DNA from: Acidimicrobiia bacterium
GTDB taxonomy: Bacteria; Actinomycetota; Acidimicrobiia; Acidimicrobiales; Bin134
Direction of reading: 5' to 3'
DNA: 64,000 nucleotides
Assembly: GCA_022826705.1 (NCBI GenBank)
Contig: JAJDUJ010000027.1
Location: forward strand, 1-64,000
Part shown: one piece after another, positions 6,165 through 39,778 of the stretch
How the letters are laid out: every line of letters starts with the position of its first letter
Numbering within the stretch: the stretch's first letter is position 1
Position numbers and translations under genes: made by a program
Notes under the pieces: model-generated
Told to the model about the DNA's origin: nothing
Databases searched by the model: none
The model's input: only the letters and a program-made list of their open reading frames with translations

Positions 6165-7219
6165 GCCACTTGCTCCGCGGCCGATGTGGCCATTTCAACC
6201 AGCGCGTCCACCCGGGCCACAAAGCTGTCGGCCCCCTGTGGTGGCGCCTTGTCGCCCATGGCCCCGCCCACATACCGGCTGTAGACGCCCTCCAGGATGC
6301 AGGCCAGCTTCCAATAGCCGAAGGCCATGTAGTACCCGAAGTTGTCTATTTCGCGCCCGGACACTTCCGAGTAGAGGTCGAACATCTCGGCTCGGCTGGC
6401 GAATCCGGACTCGCCGGTGGGGGGATCGTCCAACGCGTATTCCGAATCATCAGGCTCAGCCCAATACACCAGAAGCTGGGCCACGTCGGCGTTGCGGTCG
6501 CCCAGGGTGCACAGCTCCCAGTCGAGCACGGCCAGCACTTCGCCTTCATCGCTCAGCATGCAGTTGTCCAGGCGGTAGTCGCCGTGGACGATCCCGGCTT
6601 GGCCCTGTTCAGGGATGCGGGCCACAAGGTGGTCGTGAACCTCCTGGATCTGGGGGCGGTCCTGGGTCTTGGACTCCTCGAACTGGCGCAGCCAGCGTCG
6701 GAGCTGGCGCGCGATGTAGTCCTCCTTGCGCCCTAGATCGCCCAGCCCCACCTCGTCCACGTCAACTGCGTGGATGTGGGCCAGCGTCTCAGCAATCGAC
6801 TGGGAGGCTGTCCAGCGCACCTCAGGGGCCAGCGCGGCCGCGTGCTTGCGGTTGCGCACTACCTTCCCGTCCACAAAGTCCATGACGTAGAAGGGGCGCT
6901 CGTTTACCTCTTCGTCTTCGCACAACCCGAAGGCTTGGGGCACCGGCACGTCGGTATCGGCTAGAGCGGCGATGATCTTGTGCTCTCGGCCCATGTCGTG
7001 GGCGGTGGCCAGCACCTGGTACAGCGGCGGCCGGCGCAGCACGTAACGCCGGCCGTCGGCATCGGTGGCCTTGAAGGTGAGGTTGGAATGCCCACCGGCA
7101 ATCAGCTCGAACGTCAGCGGCAGGGCGACGCCGGGCACGTTGGCCTCGAACCACGCGCTGACCGCGTCGTGCTGGATGCCTCGGATGTGGTCCATGCGAG
7201 AGGTCACGCTAGCGTTCAA
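6161..7219 (-). CDS. Aminoglycoside-phosphotransferase-like kinase (ACAD10/11 type)
   Basis: 352-aa protein with the protein-kinase-like APH fold. The catalytic loop IVHGDYRLDN carries the His-Gly-Asp and downstream Asn expected for phosphotransfer, followed by VLDWELCTLGD, whose Asp would bind the metal. This pattern matches the phosphotransferase family often beside acyl-CoA dehydrogenases and implicated in hydroxy-acyl-CoA breakdown rather than antibiotic resistance. It is the first gene of a leftward operon and is divergent from the thioredoxin gene. A start at residue 9 (MDHIRG) is equally possible. Confidence 0.86.
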   Translation of the reverse strand: MNASVTSRMDHIRGIQHDAVSAWFEANVPGVALPLTFELIAGGHSNLTFKATDADGRRYVLRRPPLYQVLATAHDMGREHKIIAALADTDVPVPQAFGLCEDEEVNERPFYVMDFVDGKVVRNRKHAAALAPEVRWTASQSIAETLAHIHAVDVDEVGLGDLGRKEDYIARQLRRWLRQFEESKTQDRPQIQEVHDHLVARIPEQGQAGIVHGDYRLDNCMLSDEGEVLAVLDWELCTLGDRNADVAQLLVYWAEPDDSEYALDDPPTGESGFASRAEMFDLYSEVSGREIDNFGYYMAFGYWKLACILEGVYSRYVGGAMGDKAPPQGADSFVARVDALVEMATSAAEQVA

Positions 7220-7242
7220 TCTGGTTCGATGAGAGGTAGCCG

Positions 7243-7947
7243 ATGGCCGATGTGACTGATGCGACGTTCACCACTGAAGTGGTCGAGCGCTCCCACACCG
7301 TGGCGGTGGTGGTGGACCTGTGGGCGCCGTGGTGCGGGCCGTGCAAAACGCTGGGGCCGATTCTGGAGCAGGCAGTGGCGGCCACCGGCGGGGCGGTGGA
7401 GCTGGCCAAAGTCAACGTGGACGACAACCCCCAGACTGCTCAGGCCTTTCAGGTCCAGAGCATCCCCGCGGTGTACGCCATGCGCGACGGCAAGGTGGTC
7501 GACGGGTTCATCGGCGCCCAGGGAGAGGCCGCGGTAGCCCAGTTCGTGCAGGGTCTGATTCCCACCGAACAGGAGAGCGAGGTGGAGGCTCTGGTGGCCG
7601 CTGGCGACGAGGCCTCTCTGCGGCGGGCATTGGAGCTAGACGCCGACCACGAGGGCGCCGTGGTGGGGCTGGCCGAGTTGATGGTGGCTGATGGCCGGGG
7701 CACCGAAGCCCTCGATTTACTGGAGCGGATCCCCGAGACCGCCGAGGTCCGCCGAGTGGCCGCGCTGGCCCGCACCGGCGGCGGGGCCGACAATGGGGAT
7801 GTCGAGGCCCGGCTCGACGATCTGCTGGGCCGGGTGAAGGCCGATCCCGACGCCCGCCAGGAGTTCGTCGACCTGTTGGAGATCATGGGCTCCGACGATC
7901 CCCGCACCTCCGTCTACCGCCGTCGCCTCACCACCCAGCTCTACTGA
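7243..7947 (+). CDS. Thioredoxin-domain co-chaperone with TPR-like tail (CnoX/YbbN type)
   Basis: 234 aa. Residues 1-110 form a thioredoxin fold with an intact active site WCGPCK at 30-35 and a cis-proline segment QSIPAVYA. Residues about 115-234 are helical repeats ending in a segment typical of YbbN/CnoX proteins, ending DDPRTSVYRRRL. YbbN-type proteins hold unfolding clients and protect them from over-oxidation. Unlike E. coli YbbN, both active-site cysteines are present, so it may also reduce disulfides. GAGAGG precedes the ATG; a strong hairpin follows the gene. Confidence 0.88.
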   Translation: MADVTDATFTTEVVERSHTVAVVVDLWAPWCGPCKTLGPILEQAVAATGGAVELAKVNVDDNPQTAQAFQVQSIPAVYAMRDGKVVDGFIGAQGEAAVAQFVQGLIPTEQESEVEALVAAGDEASLRRALELDADHEGAVVGLAELMVADGRGTEALDLLERIPETAEVRRVAALARTGGGADNGDVEARLDDLLGRVKADPDARQEFVDLLEIMGSDDPRTSVYRRRLTTQLY

Positions 7948-7966
7948 GCTGCCGCAGGCAGCCGGG

Positions 7967-7986
7967 GACAGGGCGTTGGCCCTGTC
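7967..7986 (+). terminator. Hairpin terminator after the thioredoxin gene
   Basis: Perfect 8-bp stem GACAGGGC/GCCCTGTC with a GTTG loop, 20 bases after the stop codon and followed by a T-richer stretch (GATTCTGATTTT). A smaller hairpin (CTGCC/GGCAG, 7949-7961) sits just before it. Probably rho-independent termination that separates this gene from the competence genes. Confidence 0.65.
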
Positions 7987-8061
7987 GATTCTGATTTTCG
8001 GCTGATACTCTGAAGCCGCTTCCCCCGCCACTGGCATGGCGCGCCGCGCCCGGACGGGCTA

Positions 8062-8745
8062 ATGGAAGACTCCTCATTGCCGCCTCCCAGGCCGACCCCC
8101 GCAGACAGGGTCAGGGAGATGGTGGATGACTACCGCCACTTGATCACCGGGCCCCGGCTGTTGATGATCGGCGGTGGACTGGTGGCCGCCATTGCGGTGG
8201 CGGCCTATCTGATGGCGGGGGCCAGCAGCGCTCCTCGGCCCGAGGCAGTGATTCCCATGGCGACGTCGCTGCCCGCCCGCTCGACACCGGTTGCTGAGGC
8301 GACGACGATCTTGGCGCACGCCGCCGGTGCGGTTCACGCCCCGGGGGTGTACCTCTTTCGGGGCGAGGCCCGGGTGTTCGACTTGGTGGAGGCGGCCGGA
8401 GGGCTGGCGCCCGACGCCGACCACGACCGGGTGAACCTGGCCGCCCCGTTGTCGGACGGACTCTGGATGTACTTCCCTCGACTCGGTCAGATGGCAATAC
8501 CCGCGCCTCTGGGCGGGAATGGATCGGCGGGCGGCGGTGCGACCGCCCATTTCGGGCCTTTGAACCTCAACACCGCCACTGCTGAGCAGCTTGAGTCGCT
8601 GCCCGGGGTGGGGCCGGCCACAGCTGCGGCCATCATCGACCACCGCCAGCGCATTGGTGGGTTCGCCTCGGTAGACGGGCTGCTGGCCGTGTCCGGCATC
8701 GGCCCGGCCAAGCTGAAGCAGATCCGCGACTTGGTCGCAGTGTGA
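8062..8745 (+). CDS. comEA: ComEA-type DNA-binding competence protein
   Basis: 227 aa. One transmembrane helix at about 33-54 (LLMIGGGLVAAIAVAAYLMAG) anchors the protein. A SLBB domain follows (GAVHAPGVYLFRG...), and residues 165-227 form a ComEA-type helix-hairpin-helix pair: LNLNTATAEQLESLPGVG and LLAVSGIGPAKLKQI. In competence systems ComEA binds incoming double-stranded DNA outside the membrane and passes it to ComEC. The next gene is comEC, overlapping by four bases, which supports the call. Confidence 0.93.
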   Translation: MEDSSLPPPRPTPADRVREMVDDYRHLITGPRLLMIGGGLVAAIAVAAYLMAGASSAPRPEAVIPMATSLPARSTPVAEATTILAHAAGAVHAPGVYLFRGEARVFDLVEAAGGLAPDADHDRVNLAAPLSDGLWMYFPRLGQMAIPAPLGGNGSAGGGATAHFGPLNLNTATAEQLESLPGVGPATAAAIIDHRQRIGGFASVDGLLAVSGIGPAKLKQIRDLVAV

Positions 8746-32422: not shown

Positions 32423-32732
32423 GAATTAAGTGAAGACTTCCGCCCAGGCGAGGCGAATAGTCAAAATGGCTGGCTTTCAATTACATCAAATCACTTTATA
32501 TATATTGTTAGTACAAAACATTACCCTTGATTTCAGAGGAGGTTTGCCTGTAAACCGGTGTAAATCAATAGTTGATGTTGTTCACATCAGAAAAAAGGAG
32601 GAGCGAACCCCATATCAATATCGGGGTCACGGTAGCGCCCTCCTTGAGCTAAAAGGCCCCGACGCTTTGGGCATCTGAACAGTTTTATGCGGGATGCCCC
32701 ACTTACACCAAAAGCAAATTGGAGGCCCTGTT
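32423..32732. other. AT-rich gap between tRNA-Val and the BCCT gene
   Basis: About 310 bases clearly richer in A+T than the flanks. An 82-codon frame at 32430-32678 has no recognisable similarity or start signal, and I do not call it a gene. There is a strong Shine-Dalgarno-like AAAAAAGGAGGAG (32591-32603) with no start codon at a useful distance. A hairpin ACCCC/GGGGT (32607-32627, with inner ATAT/ATAT pairing) follows. The stretch could carry the promoter and 5' leader of the osmolyte operon, or be the scar of an integrated element. Confidence 0.5.
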
Positions 32733-34586
32733 ATGGACGACGCAGACGCCACGGCATCGGGAGATTCGCGTATTCGCCGAAGTCCTGATGACACCGACGT
32801 CGATCTCACGGAGGCGACGCAGGCCCTCCATGAATGGGAGGCCGAAGAACATCGGCTGCGGGATGAGGCAATCCACAACCGCAAGCCCTTCGAAGGCCTC
32901 CAGATCGATCCCGATATCGACTTCTACCCGGAGGTGGCCGACCGAGAGCCCGGTGACAAGAACATTGTGCGATGGGGCTTCGACATCCATCCGCAAGTCA
33001 CGTTCTGGTCGGCGGGATTCCTTCTGGTCTTCATCGGCTGGACGCTGATCTTCCAGGACACGGCCAGCGATGTATTCGGGGAGATCCTCTCGTTCATCAA
33101 CGAGAAGCTCGGGTGGCTCTACGTAATCGACTTCAACATCTTCTTGTTCATGGCGCTGTACTTCGCGTTCAGCCGGTACGGGAAGATACGGCTCGGAGGG
33201 CCGTACTCCCGTCCGGAATTCTCGACTGGGGCGTGGTACGCCATGCTCATATCGGCGGGCATCGGCATCGGGCTGATGTTCTGGGGCGTGGCCGAGCCGA
33301 TCTACCACCTGGCGTCGCCGCCCCCGCTGTTCGGTGCGGAGCCGGGCACCGGAGAGGCCGCCAAGGCCGCGGTGGCCACCACGTTCCTGCACTGGGGCAT
33401 ACACGCGTGGGCGCTGTACGGGCTGGTGGCGCTGGCGTTGGGCTTCTTCGCCTACAACCGCGGGCTGCCGCTCACCTTCCGCTCGATCTTCTACCCCATC
33501 TTGGGACCGAGGATCTACGGGAACTGGGGAAACGCCATCGACACCCTGACCGTGGTGGCCACCCTGTTCGGCCTGGCCACCTCGCTGGGCCTGGGAGCGC
33601 AGCAGGCTGCCGCCGGGCTGAACAAGCTCTACGACCTGCCCTCGGGCACCGGCTTCCAGATCGTGCTCATCGCCGCCATCACCGGCCTGGCCACCATCTC
33701 GGTGGTGGCGGGGCTCGACGCCGGGGTCAAACGGCTCAGCCAGCTCAACATCTATCTGGCCGGGGCCTTCCTGGTGTTCGTGGCTCTGGTGGGTCCGACG
33801 CTGTTCATACTCTCGCTGTTTGTCCAGAGCACCGGCTACTACGTCCAGATCATCCCCGAGTTCGGCTTCTGGAACGAGGCTTTCACCGGCACCAACTGGC
33901 AAGCCGGCTGGACCATCTTCTACTGGGGATGGTGGATTTCGTGGTCGCCGTTCGTGGGCATGTTCATTGCCCGCATATCCAAGGGCCGCTCGGTTCGCGA
34001 ACTGCTGACCGGCGTCATCTTCTTGCCCTCCGCCCTGTGCTTCCTGTGGTTCTCCGTCTTCGGCGGAGCGGCCATCGACCTTCAGCTCAGCGGCGAGCGC
34101 GACGTTGCCACCGCAGTCAACAACAACGTGGCCACAGCCCTGTTCGACATGCTGGAGGCGTTCCCGCTCACCGAAGTCGTGTCGCTGATCGGGGTGCTGC
34201 TGTTGGTGTCGTTCTTCGTCACCTCCTCTGACTCGGGGTCGCTGGTGGTAGACCATCTCACCTCGGGAGGCAAGCTCGACTCGCCGAAGCCCCAGCGAGT
34301 GTTCTGGGCGATCATGGAGGGCGCGGTTGCCGTGGTCCTGCTGCTCGGCGGGGGACTGTCGGCCTTGCAGACCGCGGCGGTGTCCACCGGCCTTCCCTTC
34401 GCGCTGATCCTCCTCGTCATGCTGTGGAGCCTGAAGAAGGCGTTCAACGAAGAGCTCGACCTGTTGGAGGGCCACTACGACGAGGCTCTCTTCCGCTCTC
34501 GCCATAGCGGCCTGATAGAGGAGGTGAAGTCCCGGCTTGAGGCCGGGCCCACGGAAGCCTCAGAGGTGAGACAGGAGGCCCCATGA
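32733..34586 (+). CDS. BCCT-family betaine/carnitine/choline transporter
   Basis: 617 aa, twelve predicted membrane helices beginning near residue 75 after a long acidic hydrophilic N-terminus. BCCT hallmarks are GIGIGLMFWGVAEPIYH in helix 3 and the tryptophan-box WGWWISWSPFVGMFIARISKGR in helix 8. These symporters import glycine betaine or related quaternary amines, usually with Na+. I chose ATG 32733 because GGAGG lies seven bases upstream. The stop overlaps the next gene's ATG (ATGA), so import and the betaine-binding lipoprotein are translationally coupled. Confidence 0.94.
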   Translation: MDDADATASGDSRIRRSPDDTDVDLTEATQALHEWEAEEHRLRDEAIHNRKPFEGLQIDPDIDFYPEVADREPGDKNIVRWGFDIHPQVTFWSAGFLLVFIGWTLIFQDTASDVFGEILSFINEKLGWLYVIDFNIFLFMALYFAFSRYGKIRLGGPYSRPEFSTGAWYAMLISAGIGIGLMFWGVAEPIYHLASPPPLFGAEPGTGEAAKAAVATTFLHWGIHAWALYGLVALALGFFAYNRGLPLTFRSIFYPILGPRIYGNWGNAIDTLTVVATLFGLATSLGLGAQQAAAGLNKLYDLPSGTGFQIVLIAAITGLATISVVAGLDAGVKRLSQLNIYLAGAFLVFVALVGPTLFILSLFVQSTGYYVQIIPEFGFWNEAFTGTNWQAGWTIFYWGWWISWSPFVGMFIARISKGRSVRELLTGVIFLPSALCFLWFSVFGGAAIDLQLSGERDVATAVNNNVATALFDMLEAFPLTEVVSLIGVLLLVSFFVTSSDSGSLVVDHLTSGGKLDSPKPQRVFWAIMEGAVAVVLLLGGGLSALQTAAVSTGLPFALILLVMLWSLKKAFNEELDLLEGHYDEALFRSRHSGLIEEVKSRLEAGPTEASEVRQEAP

Positions 34587-35641
34587 CGCAACGTAATGCA
34601 ACAAATCGACGCATCTTCAGCCGGGTGCCGGTAATCCTCGTGGCCGTGCTGGCTGCACTGGCCCTGGTGCTTGCCGGCTGCGGGACCGATGAGGATGACG
34701 GCACGGTCACGATGGCCCGGGCCAACTGGAACAGTGGCCACATGCAGGCCGCCATCTACGCCCAGCTCCTCGGAGAGCTCGGCTACGAGGTGAGCGACCC
34801 GGCCGAGAACACCCGCGACCCCAACGGGTTCTACCCTGCACTGGCCAGCGGGCAGTTCGACCTTTGGGTCAACGGCTGGTTCCCCCTGCACGACATCTAC
34901 CTGGAGGGCGAGCGGGTAACCGGCGAGACCCTCGAGCTTCCCATTGAGCCAGTGGGCTACCAGGTGCGCTCGGGAGCACTTCAGGGCTACATGATCGACA
35001 AGGCCACGGCTGACGCAATGGGGATCACCTCCATGAGCCAGCTGGCCGACGCATCGGTGGCCCGAGTCTTCGATCACGACGGCGACGGGCTCGCCGACCT
35101 GATCGGCTGCAACGACGGCTGGGGTTGCCAGACGGTCATCGACTCCCACATCGCTGATCTTGACTGGGGCGACAACGTCGAGCAGATCTCCGGCGATTAC
35201 AACAGCCTGGTGGCCGGAGTACGGGAGAGCATCGCGGCCGGCGAGCCCGTGCTGTTCTACGCTTGGACGCCCAACTGGACCTACGAGGTGCTGACACCGG
35301 GCGAGCAGGTCGTGTGGCTCGAGTCGCCCGCCCTCGACGACGAGGAGGGGACCACCGAGGTGCGGGGCCTGCGGGGCTGCGCCTCTGATCCCTGCAACCT
35401 CGGTTGGGCCGTCAGCAGTATTCGTGCGGTGGGCAACGAGGACTTCCTCGACGACAACGAGCCCGTGCGTCGCCTGCTGGAGGTCGTGACCATTCCGCTG
35501 GAGGACATCGCGGCCCAAAACGCCAAGATGGCCGCCGCGGAGCTGGGCTATTCCGAGAGCCAGATTAACGCCGACGCCGCCGACTGGATCGAGGCCAACC
35601 GCGACACCGTCGACGGTTGGCTGGCAACCGCAAGGGGCTGA
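34583..35641 (+). CDS. ProX/OpuAC-type betaine-binding lipoprotein (orphan)
   Basis: 352 aa. An N-terminal lipobox LVLAGC places the lipidated cysteine at residue 33. The mature part is an OpuAC substrate-binding domain close to ProX: NGWFPLHD (Trp99), DHDGDGLADLIGCNDGWGC (Trp180) and WTPNW (Trp228). These match the three Trp residues that form the betaine cage of E. coli ProX, including the 48-residue spacing between the last two. No ProV-like ATPase or ProW-like permease lies in the window. The flanking BCCT gene and the channel fusion, which carries a paralogous domain, are its only partners in sight. Confidence 0.92.
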   Translation: MTQRNATNRRIFSRVPVILVAVLAALALVLAGCGTDEDDGTVTMARANWNSGHMQAAIYAQLLGELGYEVSDPAENTRDPNGFYPALASGQFDLWVNGWFPLHDIYLEGERVTGETLELPIEPVGYQVRSGALQGYMIDKATADAMGITSMSQLADASVARVFDHDGDGLADLIGCNDGWGCQTVIDSHIADLDWGDNVEQISGDYNSLVAGVRESIAAGEPVLFYAWTPNWTYEVLTPGEQVVWLESPALDDEEGTTEVRGLRGCASDPCNLGWAVSSIRAVGNEDFLDDNEPVRRLLEVVTIPLEDIAAQNAKMAAAELGYSESQINADAADWIEANRDTVDGWLATARG

Positions 35642-35655
35642 CCCGGCACACTTTT

Positions 35656-37752
35656 GTGAGAGTGCATAATTCACTCCGCCGAGCGCTGGTAGCCCTATTG
35701 GTTCTGGTGCTGGGCGCCCTGGTGCTGTCCTTGGGCGCTTCAGCAACCGCCCAGGACACCTCCGACGACGCGCCCCGGGTTCGCCTGGCCCGGGCCACTT
35801 GGGACACCGGCTGGTTCCAGGCCGAGGTCTACCGGCTACTGCTGGAGCGGCTGGGTTATCAAGTCGACGGTCCCACCACGATGGACAACGCCGAGTTCTA
35901 CGGTGAGGTGGCCGAGGGGGAAGTCGATCTGTGGGTCAACGGCTGGTTCCCGTCCCACCACGTGTTCATTCCCGACGGGTCCCCAGTATCGGTGGTCGGC
36001 ACCGCAGTGGACGACGGGGCTTTGCAGGGCTACTTCGTGGATGCGGCCACCTCCGTCGCCCACGGCATCTCGAATCTGGGCGATCTGTCCGACCCTGCGA
36101 TAGCCGAGCTGTTCGACCACGACGGTGACGGCGTGGCCGATCTCGTGGGCTGCAACGTCGGATGGTCGTGCGCGTCCATCATCGACCACCACCTGGAGGC
36201 CTACGGCCTGACCGGCACGGTGGAGCATGTGCAGGGCGACTACTCGCCGCTGATTGCAGAGACCATCGACCGTTTCCGAGACGGACAGCCGGTGCTCTAT
36301 TTCACCTGGACCCCCAACTGGACGGCGGGCGAGCTGGTCCCCGGCCAAGACGTGGTGTGGCTGGAGACCCCGTTCCCGTCGCTGCCCGCCGACCTGGCCT
36401 CTTCGATCGACTACACGACCATTGCCGGGATTCCGGGATGCGCCAACGATCCCTGCCAGACCGGCTGGCCCCCCAACGACATACGGGCGGTGGCCAACAC
36501 CGATTTCCTCTCCGCCAACCCCTCCGTCGGCCGCCTGCTAGAGCAGGTGGTCATCCCGCTGACCGACATTTCCGCACAGAACGTTCGCATGGTGACCACG
36601 GGTGGCGATCCCGCCGACATACGGCGCCACGCCGAGGAGTGGGTGGCGGCCAATCAGGCCACCGTCGAGCGCTGGATCGCCGCGGCCGACCCCGACGCGG
36701 TGGGCATTTCCGAGCCCTCGGGGGAAGAAGCCGGTCCCGGGGGCACTCTTACGGTGGCCGCCCGGGCGCTGCCGCCGTTCGTGATCTACGAGAACCGCAT
36801 CTACAGCGGCTTCGAGGTCGAGCTGGTGCGGCTGGTGGCGGCCAAGCTGGGCATGGGAGTTGAGATCTATGCGGTTGACACCACCGCCAAGCAGATAGAC
36901 GACATCGACCGGGGCGTCGCCCGGCTCGGCCTGGGAGGGGTGGCCGTCACCGAGTCCCGCGAGGAGGTGGTGGACTTCTCGTTGCCCGTGTTGGACTCCG
37001 GCCTGACCATCCTTGTGCCCAACGATTCGTCGCGAGGCATCGGCGATCGGATTGCCTCATTCTTCCGGGCCGTTTGGTCGTCTGACCTGCCGTGGCTGAT
37101 GATCGTGTTCGCCGCCGCGGTACTGGTCGCCGCCCACTTGATCTGGTTGTCGGAGCGCCGCCACAATCCCGATTTCGCCGTGCCCTATCGGCGGGGCATC
37201 TGGGACTCGTTCTATTGGTCGGTGGTGACCATGAGCACCGTCGGGTACGGCGACAAGGTGGCCCGGGGGACGCGGGGCCGGGTGCTGGCGCTGTTGTGGA
37301 TCGCCCTGGGAACCCTGGTGTTCGCCAGCTTCACCGCGGCCATCGCCTCGTCGCTGGCGGTGAGCGAGCTGCGATCCGAGATCTCCGGACCCTCCGATCT
37401 GGCGGGCAAGCGGGTGGCCACCGCCACCCACTCGGCGGCGGAGACGTATCTCCCCTCCATCGGGGTGGGCCCAGTGCTGGTGGGCAACATCGATGACGCC
37501 TACCCCCTTCTGCTCGACGGAGAGGTGGATGCGGTGGTGTTCGACGCCCCGGTGCTCCAGTTCCACGCGGCCCGCGAGGGCGACGGAGAGGTCACCACGG
37601 TGGGGTCGGACTTCCAAAGGGTTCAGTACGGCTTCATGCTCAGCCCTGACGACGCCGAGCTGCGCGAGCACATAAACCTCGCGCTGTTGGACTTAGTCGA
37701 AAGCGGAATCTACGAGCGGCTCCACGACACCTGGTTCGGCCCCCAACGCTGA
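35656..37752 (+). CDS. ProX-type betaine-binding domain fused to a GluR0-like ligand-gated K+ channel
   Basis: 698 aa with GTG 35656 (start inferred from the signal peptide; the frame stays open from TTG 35617). Order: signal peptide (1-~33); ProX-like domain (~40-345) with Trp97, Trp170 and Trp218 at the betaine-cage positions; linker; amino-acid-binding lobe S1 from ~362, with Arg435 in VTESREE where glutamate receptors bind the alpha-carboxyl; helix M1 (~480-498); pore with K+ filter TVGYGD (528-533); helix M2 (~543-570) ending SFTAAIASSLAV, like the receptor gating motif; lobe S2 (~575-695) with Asp630 in VVFDAP. This is complete prokaryotic glutamate-receptor topology with a betaine-binding domain in the amino-terminal-domain position. 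The gene starts 14 bases after the ProX-like gene. Confidence 0.9.
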   Translation: MRVHNSLRRALVALLVLVLGALVLSLGASATAQDTSDDAPRVRLARATWDTGWFQAEVYRLLLERLGYQVDGPTTMDNAEFYGEVAEGEVDLWVNGWFPSHHVFIPDGSPVSVVGTAVDDGALQGYFVDAATSVAHGISNLGDLSDPAIAELFDHDGDGVADLVGCNVGWSCASIIDHHLEAYGLTGTVEHVQGDYSPLIAETIDRFRDGQPVLYFTWTPNWTAGELVPGQDVVWLETPFPSLPADLASSIDYTTIAGIPGCANDPCQTGWPPNDIRAVANTDFLSANPSVGRLLEQVVIPLTDISAQNVRMVTTGGDPADIRRHAEEWVAANQATVERWIAAADPDAVGISEPSGEEAGPGGTLTVAARALPPFVIYENRIYSGFEVELVRLVAAKLGMGVEIYAVDTTAKQIDDIDRGVARLGLGGVAVTESREEVVDFSLPVLDSGLTILVPNDSSRGIGDRIASFFRAVWSSDLPWLMIVFAAAVLVAAHLIWLSERRHNPDFAVPYRRGIWDSFYWSVVTMSTVGYGDKVARGTRGRVLALLWIALGTLVFASFTAAIASSLAVSELRSEISGPSDLAGKRVATATHSAAETYLPSIGVGPVLVGNIDDAYPLLLDGEVDAVVFDAPVLQFHAAREGDGEVTTVGSDFQRVQYGFMLSPDDAELREHINLALLDLVESGIYERLHDTWFGPQR

Positions 37753-37765
37753 TATCACATGCTGG

Positions 37766-39778
37766 ATGCTGTCTAGTACGCTGCGCCGCGGCATCTGCAT
37801 GCTGGTGGCTCTTATGGTGCTGGGTGCGGGCCTCTCCATCCTTTTGGCAGCGCCCGCTCAAGCTCAAACTGCCTCGGATGTCGTTGAGCGAGATCGGCTC
37901 ATCGCCGCACAAGAAGCACTGCTCAACGTCTACCGGTGCCGGTTCGACATCGACACTGAGATTGTTCCTGGGGGATGCGGTGGGGGTACCCCTGTCATTC
38001 CCGCGGTCCCGCCGGTGCCGTTCACCGGCACCCCAAATCGTGCCGACATAGCGGAGCGAGATCGGCTCGTCGCCGCACAAGAAGCACTGCTCAACGTCTA
38101 CCGGTGCCGGTTCGACATCGACACCGAGATCGTGCCCGGCGGGTGTTCAGGCACCTCCGATCAGACGTCGCAAACGACGGTTTTGGACACGCAGACCAGC
38201 ATTGCGATTCCTGTCTTTTATTGTGCCCCTGTCGGACATTACGACCATAGTCACCTGGCTGAAATGGTAGCTGACCTGAATCAGCATGTGACTCCGTTCT
38301 TTGCTCGCGAATCTTCTGAGTTGGTGAATGTTTATTTCACTATTGGAGGAATTGTCTCACCTATCTTTGACTGGGAGAGTATAACTCTAAGGGAACTGTG
38401 GGAACGCGGTGGGTACTCGTCTTGCGACACTGCAGCGATTGACGCAGCCAACAGCGAAACTCAAATTCTTATTATACTCGATATTCAGAATGGTGAAAAT
38501 CTTGGGGGCTATGCAACATACAATACAGGACCTTCCAGAGTTACTTTTGAGTCTTGGGGAGGACCATTTGGGAACGGATATCGTTACAATATTGCGCACG
38601 AACTCGGGCACGCATTGTTTAGCTTCCAGCACACCGATAGCGAGGATGTTGGAGAATACGATTGTTCTGAAGTTGCATGGTCAGTCATGAATAAGAGTGA
38701 TGAGTGTCTCACACGTAGCAACATAGACCCCTTGTCATATTATGAGATCTTATGCTGGCAAAAGACTACATTAGGTTGGCCCTGTTTTGATCCTGCACCC
38801 GTGGTGCCCGGTAACACTCCAAGGTCTTATGGAAGATGGAAGTCGTATGACTCGTCCAGGTTTGACCAGCTGGGTGTCATTAGCTATACACTCGAGACCG
38901 AGGGACTCTCCGATGGTAGTTCTCCTGGCCTTTGGATGTCATGTGACTATCGTGAATCCAATCAAGAATGGGGACTCTTCGCTTACGTGGGATGGGATGG
39001 ACAGGCCGTATTCGGAGACTCAGATGGCGATATGAGAGCGGAAGCACGCTTCGCTAGCGGAGATGTCCTTAAATTAGCTGGATATGAGGCGACCGGTTCG
39101 AAATTTATGAATTTCCATTTATCTAGCAGTGTTCGTTTGTTCAATGCGATCTTGCAGCGTGACGGGATACCCGTAACGTTGTCCACCACGGACAGGGATG
39201 GAAAGCTCTATTCGGCTACTTTCGACACAGAGGGTGCAGCAATCGCCGTGCAATCGGTGAGGAACTTCTGTGATCGTAAGGCATCTGATGCTTCGCGGGA
39301 GGAAAATCCTGTGCCGTCGGGTGTATGGAGAACATATGAGCACGACGTCAGAGGCTTTGTGCAGCATGGTGTAGAGACTGCGGCCATTGAGACGGAAGGA
39401 GTGGCTGACAACAACACTCCATTTCTGAAATTATCTTGTGAATATTATGAATCCAGAAATCAGTGGGATTTGTTCGCTTACGTGAGCTGGGAGGGTGACA
39501 CTGTGTTCGGTGGCGCTAATGGCAGTATGAGAGTTGAAGCGCGCTTTTCCAATGGAGATATTCTCAGCTTGGCTGGGTACGAAGGGACAGACTCGAAATT
39601 CATGAACTTGAATGCACATAACAGCTTTCGCTTGCTCAATGCGATTGTGGCGCATGATGGGATGCCGGTGACGTTGTCCACCACGGACAGGGATGGGAAA
39701 CTCTACTCGGCAACGTTCAGCACGGAAGGCGCCTCAGTAGCCGTGCGCTCTGTGATGAACTATTGCGAAGACAAGTGA
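37766..39778 (+). CDS. Secreted HExxH metalloprotease-like protein with repeats
   Basis: 670 aa. Signal peptide (1-~34, ending AQAQ). Two 31-residue copies of ERDRL(I/V)AAQEALLNVYRC...PGGC at about 41-71 and 97-127. Then a zincin-like domain with HELGH (His278, Glu279, His282) and a Met-turn-like WSVMNKS downstream. Two C-terminal repeats of ~145 residues (about 357-505 and 520-670) share GLFAYV/DLFAYV, RVEARF and STTDRDGKLYSATF. The gene is clearly AT-richer than its neighbours and uses A/T-ending codons from about 38200 on, suggesting transfer. It starts 13 bases after the channel gene. Substrate unknown. Confidence 0.8.
   Translation: MLSSTLRRGICMLVALMVLGAGLSILLAAPAQAQTASDVVERDRLIAAQEALLNVYRCRFDIDTEIVPGGCGGGTPVIPAVPPVPFTGTPNRADIAERDRLVAAQEALLNVYRCRFDIDTEIVPGGCSGTSDQTSQTTVLDTQTSIAIPVFYCAPVGHYDHSHLAEMVADLNQHVTPFFARESSELVNVYFTIGGIVSPIFDWESITLRELWERGGYSSCDTAAIDAANSETQILIILDIQNGENLGGYATYNTGPSRVTFESWGGPFGNGYRYNIAHELGHALFSFQHTDSEDVGEYDCSEVAWSVMNKSDECLTRSNIDPLSYYEILCWQKTTLGWPCFDPAPVVPGNTPRSYGRWKSYDSSRFDQLGVISYTLETEGLSDGSSPGLWMSCDYRESNQEWGLFAYVGWDGQAVFGDSDGDMRAEARFASGDVLKLAGYEATGSKFMNFHLSSSVRLFNAILQRDGIPVTLSTTDRDGKLYSATFDTEGAAIAVQSVRNFCDRKASDASREENPVPSGVWRTYEHDVRGFVQHGVETAAIETEGVADNNTPFLKLSCEYYESRNQWDLFAYVSWEGDTVFGGANGSMRVEARFSNGDILSLAGYEGTDSKFMNLNAHNSFRLLNAIVAHDGMPVTLSTTDRDGKLYSATFSTEGASVAVRSVMNYCEDK
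37886..37956 (+). repeat. Direct repeat, copy 1 (71 bp)
   Basis: This 71-bp segment recurs at 38054-38124 with a single mismatch, 168 bp (56 codons) apart and in frame. It encodes the AAQEALLNVYRCRFDID unit of the secreted metalloprotease. Near identity at DNA level points to a recent duplication or gene conversion. Confidence 0.9.
38054..38124 (+). repeat. Direct repeat, copy 2 (71 bp)
   Basis: Second copy of the in-frame unit described at 37886-37956. The single mismatch changes Ile to Val. GC-rich sequence of the repeats contrasts with the AT-rich catalytic region that follows, so the gene looks like a chimera of a local export module and foreign catalytic sequence. Confidence 0.9.

Follow-up and report, generated by a model that had tools for sequence, protein, structure and literature searches.

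A 64,000-nucleotide stretch of an Acidimicrobiia genome (assembly GCA_022826705.1, contig JAJDUJ010000027.1, positions 1 to 64,000; hereafter the window) encodes a protein in which a ProX-type solute-binding domain is joined to a GluR0-type K+ channel. This ProX-GluR0 fusion is genuine and adds a new form, of patchy occurrence, to the prokaryotic glutamate receptors. Judging from its sequence, we see an even chance that it forms an inverted K+ channel gated jointly by betaine on the N-terminal domain and by an amino acid at S1-S2. No report of an OpuAC-channel fusion was found in the literature searched (titles and abstract openings, with incomplete coverage and most subscription journals outside it), and the accessible part of a survey of solute-binding proteins (PMC9602780) does not mention ion channels.

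Architecture of the fusion protein

The gene (window positions 35656-37752, forward strand) is a single open frame of 698 codons plus a stop. Its start codon is uncertain and may be GTG at 35656, GTG at 35662 (where the homologue P0002 begins) or TTG at 35617. The parts are as follows.

35656-37752, forward strand: ProX-GluR0 fusion gene, 698 amino acids; same architecture in 234 non-identical proteins
35656-35739, forward strand: hydrophobic N-terminal segment, likely a signal peptide, residues 1-28; predicted helix 4-28
35767-36690, forward strand: ProX/OpuAC domain, residues 38-345, with W97, H101, W170, W218, C166, C172, C262 and C267
36691-36741, forward strand: linker, residues 346-362; sequence variable, length nearly fixed
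36742-37035, forward strand: S1 lobe, residues 363-460, with Arg435
37087-37164, forward strand: M1 helix, residues 478-503 (predicted structure)
37186-37254, forward strand: pore helix and TVGYGD filter, residues 511-533
37270-37374, forward strand: M2 helix, residues 539-573, with SFTAAIASSLAV
37378-37749, forward strand: S2 lobe, residues 575-698, with Asp630

Pfam places OpuAC (residues 41-331, E 7e-44, 150.8 bits against a curated cut-off of 21.2), SBP_bac_3 (366-695, E 4e-23, split by the pore), Ion_trans_2 (512-567, E 3e-14) and Lig_chan (480-586, E 3e-13) on the one chain. The NCBIfam ProX equivalog model scores 333.4 (cut-off 215) and the choline-binding model 34, and the domain has the ProX fold by a fold test. 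For the S1-S2 core, glutamine- and glutamate-binding folds match equally well. In a monomer structure model the channel part has helices at 478-503, 511-527 and 539-573, and a further helix (4-28) spans the hydrophobic N-terminal stretch, a putative signal peptide. The filter TVGYGD occupies residues 528-533 and SFTAAIASSLAV residues 558-569.

These results bear out the original prediction, which was made from the letters of the window alone. It had read the frame at 35656-37752 as a ProX-type domain followed by S1, M1, pore, M2 and S2, an order with which the Pfam matches agree, and it had proposed OpuAC, SBP_bac_3 and Ion_trans_2 as families to look for on one chain, where all three occur. 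The residues that it named (W97, W170, W218, R435, D630 and TVGYGD) are found at the positions it gave.

Homologues and selection

Two full-length searches of 5.8 billion proteins (E <= 0.001) found 717 and 688 matches, and each listing comprised its best 120. The protein searches covered all sources; the genome searches were all within Actinomycetota. Both halves are present in 213 of 213 listed homologues (P0002-P0214), scanned with the two parts of the window's protein. From 279 sequences with both parts, six partial ones were dropped (L003, L011, L047, L062, L081, L083; some of these are copies of the window or of loci cut by a locus edge) and identical ones were merged. This left 234 non-identical fusions: the protein searches together with the window contributed 195, and loci the other 39. 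The architecture is common to at least 234 non-identical proteins, counting the matches listed and the locus copies. A search for homologues with the same architecture on one chain had been suggested in the original prediction, and its outcome is that the two parts are not always split.

Sources among the matches listed include a Candidatus Poriferiso... record, Acidimicrobiaceae assemblies, and Euzebya tangerina and Salsipaludibacter albus, both Nitriliruptoria; the E. tangerina protein (P0122) is 100% identical to the fusion protein of genome G302. Those listed homologues that NCBI names are annotated as ABC transporter substrate-binding protein ProX.

Metagenome assemblies make up most of the named sources, as would suit an assembly join, which the original prediction had raised, or a mis-annotated gene pair, but the same frame recurs in the 234 proteins, including those of the two named species, and the fusions form one clade both on a ProX tree and on a channel tree (see below). 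We give this explanation almost no credence, and an assembly artefact was rejected on the presence of both halves in all listed homologues and in 234 non-identical proteins. The ratio of nonsynonymous to synonymous substitution rates (dN/dS), computed for the window's fusion gene against L026, L027 and L030, is 0.11-0.18 in either half. A decaying or unselected gene was rejected on these values, though two degraded copies exist. One of these (L129 10583-11434, in G369) is a 283-residue frame without ProX, M1 and pore, and the other (L062 7986-9037) is a fragment from residue 283 onward.

Conserved ligand sites and linker

The aromatic cage is kept throughout the 234 fusions. W97 and W170 are invariant (234 of 234 each), the residue at 218 is Trp in 199 proteins and Phe in the remaining 35, and H101 is present in 222, with Gln in the other 12. 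The cysteines C166, C172, C262 and C267 are each found in all 234, as is the TVGYGD filter. In the second site, R435 is invariant (234/234) and D630 is present in 230, replaced by Glu in three and Ala in one. An alignment by phmmer to E. coli ProX (1r9l) maps W97, W170, W218 and H101 to W65, W140, W188 and H69, which reportedly bind betaine. Trp65 and Trp188 of ProX are named in the accessible part of PMC8601584, that of PMC2861598 describes the three-Trp prism of OpuAC, and that of PMC2950845 gives the Arg in S1 and the Asp in S2 as amino acid contacts.

Separate ProX proteins encoded beside a BCCT transporter gene (n = 39, a group assigned by us) have W97, W170 and H101 in all cases and at position 218 Trp in 34 and Tyr in five. 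Among other ProX (n = 25), W97 is present in 22, W170 in 21 and W218 in 25.

Mean conservation over the 234 fusions is 0.82 for ProX, 0.81 for S1, 0.90 for M1-P-M2, 0.78 for S2 and 0.56 for the linker, and the distance from W340 to L365 is 25-27 residues in 231 of the 234. We infer that a linker free in sequence and not in length is what mechanical coupling would leave.

The cage bears on a different account of the protein, namely an amino-acid-gated K+ channel in which ProX only aids assembly or tunes gating and betaine neither opens nor closes the pore. The N-terminal domains of animal receptors likewise aid assembly or tune gating, and channels without such a domain occur in the same phylum (G040, G374, G160). 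A GluR0-type channel works alone in Synechocystis (PMC13099474), and an AMPA-receptor/Kcv chimera could do without its N-terminal domain, according to the accessible part of PMC6385376. However, if the domain were purely structural, loss of the cage would be expected, whereas W97 and W170 are as invariant as the filter and the third cage residue stays aromatic; the linkage to BCCT and ProX genes also argues against this account, which we consider unlikely.

Linkage to a BCCT transporter and a second ProX

The two genes upstream of the fusion gene, a neighbourhood that the original prediction did not cover, are codirectional with it.

32694-34586, forward strand: BCCT transporter gene; Pfam PF02028, E 5e-191; GxGxG and FYWGWW motifs
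34583-35641, forward strand: separate ProX gene; overlaps the BCCT gene by 4 bases

The separate ProX carries LAGC near its start, which may mark a lipoprotein. The BCCT protein is the only one found in its genome assembly and has GIGIG at residue 189; GxGxG is conserved in BCCT betaine carriers, as stated in the accessible part of PMC11708041.

We compared 41 other loci, 38 from a genome contig scan (all titled Acidimicrobiia, Acidimicrobiaceae or just bacterium) and three from Nitriliruptoria. The BCCT-ProX pair adjoins the fusion gene in 35 of them, in head to head (28), tail to tail (five) or codirectional (two) orientation, and the linked BCCT proteins have GxGxG and FYWGWW in 35 of 35. 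Four of the remaining six loci (L028, L036, L047, L063) run into a contig end; in L029 the BCCT gene is cut by the contig end, and L062 has only the fusion fragment and no BCCT-ProX pair. That three genes are kept together across three orientations argues for a shared task.

BCCT and ProX genes overlap by 4 bases in 23 of the 35 loci and are separated by a 31-base gap in 10. The tight pair is possibly a binding-protein-dependent BCCT carrier. No BCCT carrier with a dedicated binding protein was found in the literature searched (titles and abstract openings, partial coverage). In L034, L040-L046, L048-L049, L051-L052 and L054-L060 the BCCT-linked ProX is shorter (about 310-321 amino acids) and has no match to some 30-35 positions near fusion residues 237-273, the stretch in which the fusion has C262 and C267.

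The channel may be gated through ProX with another methylated amine or analogue as the natural ligand (choline, proline betaine, trimethylamine, trimethylamine N-oxide, carnitine or dimethylsulfoniopropionate). The closest solved BCCT to the neighbour is the trimethylamine carrier TmaT (509 bits, vs 318 for BetP), which did not bind betaine according to the accessible part of PMC11708041. The best NCBIfam model for the window's BCCT is betaine, at a score (558) below its cut-off of 650, and Phe218 and Gln101 occur in 35 and 12 of the fusions. Against such a ligand, the betaine model still outscores the choline model BetT (455), the ProX domain lies far above its own cut-off and scores poorly with the choline-binding model, and three Trp and a His form the cage as in E. 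coli ProX. We regard a natural ligand other than glycine betaine as improbable, to about the same degree as a channel gated by amino acid alone.

Database names suggest an ABC-importer subunit. ABC genes like those of locus L080 (Pfam ABC_tran+CBS and BPD_transp_1) are present in one of the 41 loci (L029), none was found in the window by phmmer, and L074 gave one weak ATPase match (55 bits). On the count of one locus in 41, an ABC-importer subunit was rejected. L080 itself (6249-8447, G007) encodes a tandem ProX-ProX protein with two nearly identical domains, beside the ABC ATPase and permease genes; such tandem proteins (704-732 amino acids, one frame) are also encoded in L019 and L108.

Downstream of the fusion, a gene at 37766-39778 lies 13 bases beyond its end and encodes 670 amino acids, with no Pfam or NCBIfam match. 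Direct repeats (ERDRLIAAQEALLNVYRCRFDIDTE) lie at the N terminus of the protein and two similar repeats at its C terminus, and it has a zinc-protease-like HELGH. The only relatives that phmmer found are in L026, L062 and, weakly, L027.

Origin of the fusion

A ProX tree was built from 45 domains hand-chosen for spread: 16 from fusions, 14 from BCCT-linked ProX and 15 from other ProX. All 16 of the fusion domains group in a single clade (100/99) that is sister to the 14 BCCT-linked ProX (94/96; 93% of bootstrap trees), and these two groups together stand apart from the 15 other ProX (100/100). Because the fusion domains and the BCCT-linked ProX are sister groups, away from other ProX, the most likely source of the channel's sensor is a duplicated copy of the BCCT transporter's own binding protein. 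The channel tree used 40 of the 92 standalone rows, after thinning, plus three locus rows; the 13 fusions form one clade (100/100) among the 43 standalone channels. Repeated independent fusion is not supported, since the fusions fall in a single clade on each tree, the rows of which were hand-chosen or thinned. The 92 standalone GluR0-type relatives (P0215-P0310) comprise 59 with TVGYGD or TIGYGD and 33 without such a filter, which recalls Groups 1 and 2 of PMC2950845.

BCCT-ProX pairs without a channel gene were identified in G360, G564, G561 and G568 (loci L124, L125, L127 and L128), with the limits that completeness is 64% for G564 and 78% for G561 and that the contig ends near ProX in L128. 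The simplest reading of the order is a BCCT-ProX pair, then duplication of ProX and a single fusion to a GluR0 channel, then joint descent with later losses.

This shared ancestry, with the linkage in 35 of 41 loci, could also suit a tethered ProX that captures betaine for the BCCT carrier, the pore being a counter-ion path ungated by the domain. However, the separate ProX beside the BCCT gene in all 35 loci would already do the capture, and a short linker of near-fixed length suits coupling to S1-S2 more than hand-over. We hold this capture role to be highly improbable.

Distribution

Among 60 related genomes, the whole fusion is found in three of 21 of the same genus (G013, G018, G021), with a fragment in one more (G005), and in one of 38 of the same order (G055). 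Of 346 genomes sampled from the phylum, nine have a GluR0-type channel at E <= 1e-22: five fusions (G000, G055, G302, G154, G143), one broken copy (G369) and standalone channels without ProX in G040, G374 and G160. In the class (198 genomes) 10 have the fusion; the same 10 carry a separate ProX scoring >300 bits against that of the window, and seven others have only weaker ProX. The fusion is present in three of 66 genomes of the class of Euzebya, and a remnant in one more. With a standalone channel as query, OpuAC was found in none of 101 matches, a list that also misses the family of the window's own fusion even though its members are within the length limit applied, so other fusions may exist.

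Proposed function

The proposal builds on what the sequences hold directly: the architecture, the conservation of cage and filter, the linkage to BCCT and ProX, and the grouping of the two kinds of ProX on the tree. We suggest that glycine betaine or a close relative in the periplasm would close the ProX clamshell, and that the short linker, nearly constant in length, would transmit this closure so as to bias the S1-S2 clamshell, whose amino acid ligand would be a second input. The K+ pore would then be opened by four such subunits, their two soluble parts lying outside the membrane. The neighbouring carrier would import the same or a similar solute, probably with Na+; K+ exit through the channel could balance the charge of betaine uptake and rid the cell of stored K+ whose place betaine takes as the cell adapts to high osmolarity. 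Should glutamate be the second ligand, the channel would report glutamate released along with K+. GluR0 carries K+ and acts in KCl shock (PMC13099474), and the discussion of that paper treats the swap of K+ glutamate for neutral solutes.

Put together, a betaine-gated K+ channel, in which a copy of the betaine carrier's binding protein is GluR0's independently gained outer sensor and in which betaine and amino acid are read at once while stored K+ (glutamate) is exchanged for betaine, is a proposal that we rate a little short of an even chance. Conservation of the cage and linkage to the BCCT gene speak for a role of betaine; on the other side, the nearest solved BCCT is a trimethylamine carrier and Phe variants occur, so that other methylamines may serve.

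Several points weigh against betaine gating. The patchy spread (three of 21 genomes in the genus, 10 of 198 in the class, five of 346 in the phylum sample) argues that this is not a core osmotic function. With TmaT as the nearest solved BCCT and the NCBIfam betaine cut-off missed, the ligand in common may be something other than glycine betaine, and Phe218 in 35 and Gln101 in 12 of the 234 indicate that affinity or ligand may vary. Asp630 of the second site is Glu in three and Ala in one. The monomer model has a predicted template modelling score (pTM) of 0.49, and the relative placement of its two halves is weak. The engineered AMPA-receptor/K+-pore chimera of PMC6385376, as described in its accessible part, dispenses with the N-terminal domain.

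Compatible solutes and K+ movement are usually thought to be coupled via turgor, ionic strength or gene expression. If betaine gates the fusion, it would be a direct molecular link from a compatible solute to K+ movement. The fusion offers a simple system, with two well-defined sites, for studying how an outer domain controls a pore, and two named species (Euzebya tangerina and Salsipaludibacter albus) carry it. Public annotation hides the family under the ABC substrate-binding name ProX.

Comparison with known systems

The fusion shares with GluR0 of Synechocystis and with Group 1 (Ger et al. 2010, PMC2950845) the order S1-M1-pore-M2-S2, the K+ filter, the S1 Arg and the S2 Asp, and it has every feature of that group that can be tested in sequence (S1 and S2 flanking the pore, K+ filter, Arg/Asp). 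The ligand-core fold is also shared (1ii5, 2pyy). Unlike the fusion, GluR0 has no N-terminal domain, as the original prediction held and as the accessible part of PMC6385376 agrees. That of PMC2950845 names neither betaine nor an N-terminal domain; in its Figure 6 legend IPR001828 appears (extracellular ligand-binding receptor domain), which a prokaryotic sequence may carry.

ProX serves an ABC importer. In contrast to E. coli ProX (1r9l, ProU), the ProX of the fusion has a channel attached and a BCCT gene next to it, and ABC genes like those of L080 stand alongside the fusion in only one of 41 loci. The neighbouring transporter shares PF02028, GxGxG and the aromatic FYWGWW stretch with BetP and TmaT, but differs from them in its pairing with a separate ProX gene.

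Eukaryotic AMPA and NMDA receptors have the same order of outer bilobed domain, ligand domain and inverted pore, and the top Foldseek matches of the fusion model include full-length GluA2 and NMDA chains. The fusion differs in its K+ filter and in the lack of M4, its chain ending at S2 (residue 698). The N-terminal domain of eukaryotic glutamate receptors is of LIVBP type, whereas that of the fusion is OpuAC. Because this domain derives from ProX/OpuAC and not from the LIVBP type, the likeness to eukaryotic receptors is most likely convergent, and it suggests that the animal-type order of outer sensor, ligand clamshell and inverted pore arose more than once.
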